From: Chloroflexota bacterium
GTDB lineage: Bacteria > Chloroflexota > Dehalococcoidia > Lucifugimonadales > JADFKI01
Length of the DNA stretch: 64,000 nucleotides
Reading direction: 5' to 3'
NCBI GenBank assembly: GCA_009840355.1
Contig: VXNZ01000049.1
Location: 1 to 64,000 of the forward strand
Shown here: positions 54,826-56,047 of the stretch, piece by piece
How positions within the stretch are numbered: position 1 is the first letter of the stretch
Layout of the letters: every line of letters begins with the position of its first letter
Position numbers and translations under genes: made by a program
Notes under the pieces: model-generated
Database searches by the model: none
Told to the model about the DNA's origin: nothing
The model's input: the letters and a program-made list of their open reading frames with translations, nothing else

Positions 54826-55033
54826 CAGCGTCCGCCAAAGCGGATATATGCGTTCAATGTTATGGTCAGAGTTATGGACAGAATCAATGCGGCAACCTTT
54901 TCCTGCGATTGAGCATCATATTATCTGATACTCTGCGAATTAGAAACCGTTGTAGTTCCTTACTCTTGAAGGAAGGGGCTATTGATGAATGTACAATCTG
55001 GTATTATTTCTAGTACGTGAGATTAAATTGAAG

Positions 55034-56047
55034 ATGAACATAAAGCTATATGCTAAGAACATTCTGCTGGGCGCGGTGGTTACACTGATGTGTGTGGCTG
55101 CGACTGCGTGCGCTGACAGTACGCCGGCAGCGCCAATACAATCGGCGACGCAACCCGCATCAGCGACATCTTCGACTGAGACAGCCCAGCGCGTGGATGC
55201 AATGCCGACTGCCGTGCCCGCGTCGCCTAGCGCCCAATCACCTGCCACGCCTGCGACCGCAGTACAGCCAAGCGCGATTGCGGCAATGCCGGTAACGCAA
55301 GCCATGCCGACAAGCACAGCTTCAGCTACGGTCGCCATTGCGCCCACAAGCGCGCCACAGCAACCCACACCAGCCACTGCTGCGACTTCCACGCCTGCGC
55401 CAAGCGCAACTTCCGAGCAACCGGCGGCGACCGCGACGACTGCCGCAACACCGCCAAGTGTGCCGCCCACCGCCGCTCCCGCTGACACGGCGACGCCCGA
55501 ACCCTCGCCGGTGGTGGCTTTGACAACCCCTACTCCTGCATTGGGTGCAAACGACAGCACGGACAGCGGCGATGCAAGCTTGGACGCAAATATCGGCACA
55601 GAGGTCGGCGACATCGCGCCCGGATTCGTGCTGCCTAGCGCACTTAGTGGCGACTTTGATTTGTCGGCGTTCAGGGGCGAGAAGAATGTGGCTCTGGTGT
55701 TTTATCGCGCGTTCTGGTGACCGTTCTGCCGTGCTCAGCTCGTTGAGCTGACTGACCATTACGGGGAAATCGAAGGGCTGGATGCCATCGTGTTAGCGGT
55801 GAGTGCGGACGACCTTTCCGGCGCGACATCGGCAGCACAGAATTGGGGACCGCCTTTTCCTATCCTGTACAACTCGGATACGACCGTCATTGAGAATTAC
55901 GGCGTCTTGGCGGGCAAAATATCCAAGCCGGCGACTTTCATCATCGACAAGAGCGGCGCCATACGCTGGAAGTACATCGGCGGCGACAAGGCAGACCGCC
56001 CTAGTCCGCAGGCAGTATTGGAGCAGCTGCGCGCACTTGAAGGGTAG
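55034..56047 (+). CDS. Candidate selenocysteine lipoprotein peroxiredoxin (UxxC)
   Basis: Reading through the TGA at 55718-55720 gives 337 residues. A signal peptide ends in a lipobox (VAATAC, Cys26). A low-complexity Ala/Thr/Pro linker of about 130 residues follows, then an AhpC/TSA-type thioredoxin fold. The motif FYRAFW-(TGA)-PFCRAQL places the TGA, codon 229, exactly at the peroxidatic Cys of FWCPFC, with the second Cys at 232. The downstream frame (GPPFPILYNSD, ISKPATFIIDKSG) is fully conserved. A SECIS-like hairpin follows. It would reduce peroxides outside the membrane. The ATG at 55034 is chosen over 54989 because it gives a normal signal peptide. The alternative is a simple nonsense mutation. 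Confidence 0.8.
55735..55751 (+). promoter_or_regulatory. Candidate bacterial SECIS element
   Basis: TCAGCTC (55735-55741) pairs perfectly with GAGCTGA (55745-55751) across the loop GTT (55742-55744). The loop starts 21 nt after the TGA and has G in its first position. The stem length, loop size, spacing and loop G all fall within the accepted bacterial SECIS pattern as I know it. Confidence 0.7.

Follow-up and report, generated by a model that had tools for sequence, protein, structure and literature searches.

A predicted lipid-anchored UxxC selenoprotein with a peroxiredoxin fold, encoded across an in-frame TGA in a Chloroflexota bacterium

In the 64,000-nucleotide stretch of DNA analysed here (the window), UGA codon 229 of the gene at 55034-56047 on the forward strand very probably encodes selenocysteine (Sec, U) in a redox active site. 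The complete interpretation, in which the product is a lipid-tethered, extracytoplasmic and thioredoxin-like UxxC selenoprotein, with Sec inserted by the organism's own SelA, SelB, tRNA-Sec and SelD under the direction of a hairpin in the message, is held with high confidence, whereas its function as a thiol/selenol oxidoreductase, which is suggested by comparison of motifs, is favoured more cautiously.

Standard annotation cuts these genes at UGA across a whole bacterial order, and, therefore, a redox family of a large order and of the wider phylum appears only as low-complexity lipoproteins devoid of an enzyme. If the interpretation is true, selenium use extends to a predicted layer of tethered redox proteins outside the cytoplasm, and the family offers a clean example of covariation in a short bacterial SECIS. 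The features of the gene, all on the forward strand, are as follows.

55034-56047 (+), the entire gene, encoding a selenoprotein of 337 residues in which Sec is residue 229; the orthologues keep the frame
55034-55111 (+), signal peptide with lipobox-like VAATAC and Cys26 as predicted lipidation site, from the sequence and from lipobox-like hydrophobic N-termini in relatives
55112-55594 (+), probably disordered Ala/Thr/Pro/Ser linker of about 160 residues, from its composition and from similar linkers, variable in length, among the relatives
55604-56044 (+), peroxiredoxin-fold domain, from Pfam PF00578, AlphaFold2 and Foldseek
55718-55720 (+), TGA codon read as Sec, the U of UPFC; TGA in 48 aligned sequences, TGC/TGT in 80 homologues with Cys from beyond the order
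55727-55729 (+), TGC codon for Cys232, the second residue of UxxC, invariant in alignment A2
55735-55751 (+), predicted bacterial SECIS hairpin, from covariation, a synonymous-site test and fit to the model in PMC13188914
55736-55740 with 55746-55750 (+), hairpin stem CAGCT/AGCTG, with an extra pair 55735-55751
55741-55745 (+), hairpin loop CGTTG, with an invariant G at 55742

The reading frame and its conservation

With TGA read as U, the frame contains a single in-frame TGA, which falls inside the FYRAFW-U-PFC segment of an AhpC/TSA domain, and ends at a TAG stop; a standard gene caller terminates the ORF at 55720. The coordinates of gene and TGA given by an earlier, sequence-only reading were right. 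The Pfam AhpC-TSA match extends across the TGA. Another in-frame ATG is found upstream, at 54989, but the start at 55034 is favoured by its conservation in the closest relative, L023, whose N-terminus reads MDINLYTKN. The gene stands alone between a divergent nicotinate phosphoribosyltransferase gene and that of RNase Y, an arrangement also present in two same-genus relatives (L169 and L170); a promoter and terminator scan was uninformative.

Same-genus relatives at 93, 67, 66 and 64% identity each show a single TGA within the same match, which excludes its occurrence by chance. Among 197 genomes of the order, TGA is found in every match with E < 1e-20, and the 48 aligned sequences retain both U and the second Cys, the TGA being always followed by xxC. 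The UxxC motif recognized in the sequence-only reading (U229-P-F-C232) is thus borne out by alignment A2, in which U and C are invariant. In the phylum beyond the order, most strong matches carry TGA, and true Cys homologues also occur (L062 and L063). A contig scan yielded 80 Cys loci with FYR[AG][FY]WC..C in Bacteroidota, Acidobacteriota, Planctomycetota and others; as its pattern demanded Cys codons, nothing but Cys homologues from beyond the order came up, and these were used as a negative control. The homologue alignment that the sequence-only reading had proposed as a check places the in-frame UGA on a Cys codon of the homologues (TGC or TGT in 80), and not on Trp. Downstream of the TGA, dN/dS among same-genus orthologues is approximately 0.1-0.26, which indicates purifying selection on that part of the protein.

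Some other candidates for Cys versions of the family were discarded: those non-TGA matches of the order that were opened (L175-L180) are TxxC peroxiredoxins with Arg, and one match in the phylum (L077) is of the PrxQ type. A few family copies (in G192, G182, G065 and G317) have, in addition to the TGA, a TAA or TAG inside the match, and these are possible decayed copies, assembly errors or alignments running beyond the gene end.

Decoding of the UGA codon

The genome (G000; 3.28 Mb in 57 contigs, 97% complete) contains all of SelA, SelB, tRNA-Sec and SelD, so that the search for selA, selB, selC and selD suggested in the sequence-only reading gave a positive answer for each. SelB is encoded by a 632-aa ORF; tRNA-Sec scores 66.4 bits against a 47-bit cut-off, and ARAGORN identifies it as SeC with a UCA anticodon; and selC, selA and selD lie within approximately 36 kb on one contig (C14). 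The selD gene (L017, G000:C14:129387-130307) likewise contains a TGA within its frame (SCAG-U-ASK), and selenophosphate synthetase itself is predicted to be a selenoprotein; Sec decoding, therefore, probably serves another gene too. Within the order selB was detected in 175 of 197 genomes. The matches listed place a TGA in 90 genomes, of which 86 have a detected selB; the other four are drafts of 74-89% completeness. With selB this widespread in the order, its co-occurrence with the TGA is consistent with Sec decoding but weak evidence for it.

Two explanations would dispense with Sec altogether, and each is given only a very slight probability. A nonsense mutation, leaving a pseudogene or a truncated lipoprotein, would agree with the standard gene call that stops at 55720; the same TGA is, however, kept across the order and beyond, the frame and purifying selection persist past it, SECIS-type covariation follows it (see below) and the Sec machinery is present, and the conservation of both the TGA and the downstream frame refutes this explanation. 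Insertion of Trp, Cys or some further amino acid at UGA, whether throughout the genome or by general readthrough, would account for a frame that is open on either side of the TGA. Yet TGA also serves as a normal stop in the window, as the sequence-only reading had noted for neighbouring genes when it judged recoding to Trp unlikely; of 30 non-overlapping ORFs of 250 aa or longer, picked mechanically, 9 end in it. Furthermore, tRNA-Sec(UCA) is found with SelA, SelB and SelD, the homologues have Cys rather than Trp, and the hairpin is largely specific to the TGA genes; general recoding was rejected. Assignment of the TGA to Sec, as proposed in the sequence-only reading, thus stands on the conserved codon, the full machinery and the SECIS-type hairpin.

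A SECIS-type hairpin downstream of the UGA

In published work, the bacterial SECIS is modelled as a hairpin with a loop of 3-9 nt, a G in the first two loop positions and a location 16-37 nt after the UGA, with the loop consensus N1-G-[G/U]-N-N2 (PMC13188914). The loop found here, CGUUG, with a C-G closing pair and beginning 20 nt past the UGA, agrees with that model. The stem joins bases 18-22 to 28-32, and base 17 to 33, when numbering starts from 0 at the T of TGA. Across 46 distinct sequences, 94.6% of the cells are paired; double-sided changes number 26 cells against a shuffled mean of 5.2, with none of 500 shuffles as high, and the covariation score is 0.269, against 0.137 in shuffled alignments and at most 0.084 in slid controls. 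RNAalifold applied to the full 54-nt segment gave only a weak consensus (-1.6), because single-sequence folds vary; it was by counting the named pairs that the hairpin became clear.

Since the protein motif QLVEL could by itself favour a stem, synonymous positions were tested. At the third base of Gln and the first of Leu in the stem, the combinations are A-T in 20 cases, G-C in 16, G-T in 7 and A-C in none, whereas A-C is the most frequent combination (13 of 28) in control Q..L pairs elsewhere in these genes (Fisher p 6e-7, a value that, like the other hairpin p-values, is inexact and overstates significance, the sequences being related and not independent). Loop base 24 is G in all 46 Sec genes, although the codon that contains it specifies V, G, D or A, and in 35 of 80 Cys homologues; every stem pair forms in 39 of 46 Sec genes versus 5 of 80 Cys homologues, a comparison that is supportive and not decisive, as the Cys homologues are more distant in protein sequence.

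A predicted lipoprotein with a long linker

The N-terminus and linker described in the sequence-only reading were also recovered, namely a lipobox-like site, LMCVAATAC followed by A, with Cys26 as the candidate lipidation site, and a linker composed of 26% Ala, 19% Thr, 18% Pro and 12% Ser. The lipobox of this protein, VAATAC, is weak, with Ala at -3, and stronger ones are seen in many relatives (e.g. FALTVVGC and LLVVALAAC); among the 48 aligned sequences, most of those whose N-terminus is covered have both lipobox and linker. Export and lipid anchoring of the selenoprotein are sequence-based predictions.

Fold and active site

The domain that carries the Sec residue is of the peroxiredoxin (Prx) fold. 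Pfam AhpC-TSA (PF00578) matches residues 191-312, with an E-value of 1.7e-25 and 89.8 bits against a cut-off of 26; AlphaFold2 models the domain with confidence as a Prx fold (mean pLDDT 91.5), and with this model Foldseek retrieves AhpE and 2-Cys Prx at a TM of approximately 0.9. Against solved structures, the family profile finds peroxiredoxins best (7e-26), with ResA at 8e-18. No NCBIfam model scored above its cut-off on the five proteins tested, the best match of the window protein being the SelL-related redox protein model NF040769 (57.8 against a cut-off of 120 bits).

The term peroxiredoxin used in the sequence-only reading is, then, justified for the fold and not for the active site, which has neither the PxxxTxxC/U motif nor the catalytic Arg. 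On alignment to solved peroxiredoxins, the segment RAFWUPFC has Arg in place of Pro (this being the invariant Arg of FYR), Sec in place of Thr, and Cys kept, while the Pro or Ala of KPATF or SASVF occupies the place of the catalytic Arg (R116 of AhpE, of which the wild type and R116A were compared). Contrary to the placing of the TGA at the catalytic position, Sec229 thus falls on the Thr of PxxxTxxC, and it is Cys232 that falls on the peroxidatic Cys. The whole looks like a thioredoxin-type active site built on a Prx scaffold and distinct from that of the peroxidases. The UxxC form also looks functionally separate, because the same genome has two other TGA frames, both TxxU with Arg at the aligned place. 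These are an AhpE-like frame (L015, G000:C25:170214-170660; FTGGU) and a PrxQ-like one (L016, G000:C37:41468-41860; TRGU), each with one in-frame TGA and both predicted to be Sec peroxiredoxins.

How the active site works admits more than one answer. A true peroxiredoxin, in which Cys232 would be peroxidatic and Sec229 resolving, or in which Sec would reduce peroxide directly by the Prx mechanism, would agree with the Prx identity of the solved structures that match best (AhpE, BCP and 2-Cys Prx), whether compared by sequence or by fold, and with the alignment of Cys232 to the peroxidatic Cys; it is nevertheless considered unlikely, though by no means negligible, given that Arg, Sec and Pro/Ala stand where the Prx site has Pro, Thr and Arg, and given the two TxxU frames with Arg in the same genome. 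Less probable still is that the enzyme is no reductase but an oxidase or isomerase of the disulfides of exported proteins, in the manner of DsbA or DsbC: the UxxC motif is predicted to be extracytoplasmic and the ResA and DsbE models are weakly similar to the protein, but the Prx scaffold differs from that of DsbA, and Sec usually favours the reduction of a peroxide or a disulfide.

In the preferred reading, that of a thiol/selenol oxidoreductase, the protein would be exported, lipidated at Cys26 and anchored to the outer face of the cytoplasmic membrane, its long flexible linker carrying the Prx-fold domain. SelA, SelB, tRNA-Sec and SelD would decode UGA 229 as Sec, guided by the short hairpin just downstream, and Sec229 and Cys232 would form a thioredoxin-like UxxC pair. 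The selenolate may attack the substrate (a disulfide, sulfenic acid or peroxide), Cys232 would resolve the intermediate with formation of a Se-S bond, and re-reduction might come from a thiol carrier on the extracytoplasmic side fed by a membrane protein of the CcdA-like kind or a TlpA-type thioredoxin. The genome encodes one CcdA-like protein, which has the motifs NPC and SCTLP and matches below the Pfam cut-off. In a Cys relative from the phylum (L062:91-1935), a lipoprotein-like single chain fuses SurA-like and WCPPC AhpC-TSA/thioredoxin domains, which suggests a thioredoxin-like partner.

Relation to known selenoproteins

Prx-like UxxC selenoproteins are a class already predicted in the literature, as the sequence-only reading stated for UxxC redox proteins in general, and their thiol:disulfide oxidoreductase activity is a prediction there too (PMC1088965, PMC2398784, PMC13188914). 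The protein shares PF00578, and UxxC instead of TxxU, with the Prx-like thiol:disulfide oxidoreductases ('Prx-like 1') of the GOS survey. It may differ from that class in the predicted lipid anchor and long Ala/Thr/Pro linker, in the tandem arrays of several relatives and in the presence of Sec in all strong matches of the order searched; the predicted lipoprotein-with-linker form, its order-wide use and the tandem arrays appear to be new. The match to NF040769 covers the UxxC region, but its score makes the protein no member of that family by the model. With the Sec peroxiredoxins (TxxU; PrxU, PrxQ and AhpE-like), of which L015 and L016 are the representatives in this genome, the fold is in common, but in those enzymes Sec is peroxidatic and is accompanied by the catalytic Arg, whereas here it takes the Thr position and the Arg is absent. 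The ResA/TlpA extracytoplasmic thioredoxins are membrane-bound CxxC redox proteins, and the family profile matches ResA structures at approximately 1e-17; they have Cys, however, while the protein described here has Sec, a predicted lipid anchor and a long linker, and is overall nearer to Prx. Literature searches returned no study joining selenoproteins with SAR202 and, for Chloroflexota and Dehalococcoidia, nothing on this protein.

A second UxxC TGA redoxin is found in the same genome (L014, G000:C11:81748-82161; FYRAHW-U-PYC); it has neither signal peptide nor linker and is, therefore, probably cytoplasmic. That surface-tethered Sec enzymes, two or three in tandem with varied xx residues and linkers, form a lineage-wide, selenium-dependent extracytoplasmic redox relay in the order, with a chemistry (a thioredoxin-type site on a Prx fold) not known from any characterized enzyme, is a tentative and rather doubtful proposal. 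The tandem arrays themselves (L162-L168) comprise two or three TGA redoxin lipoproteins, with motifs UPYC, UPSC/UGFC and UGIC and, in some lineages, decreasing linker length.
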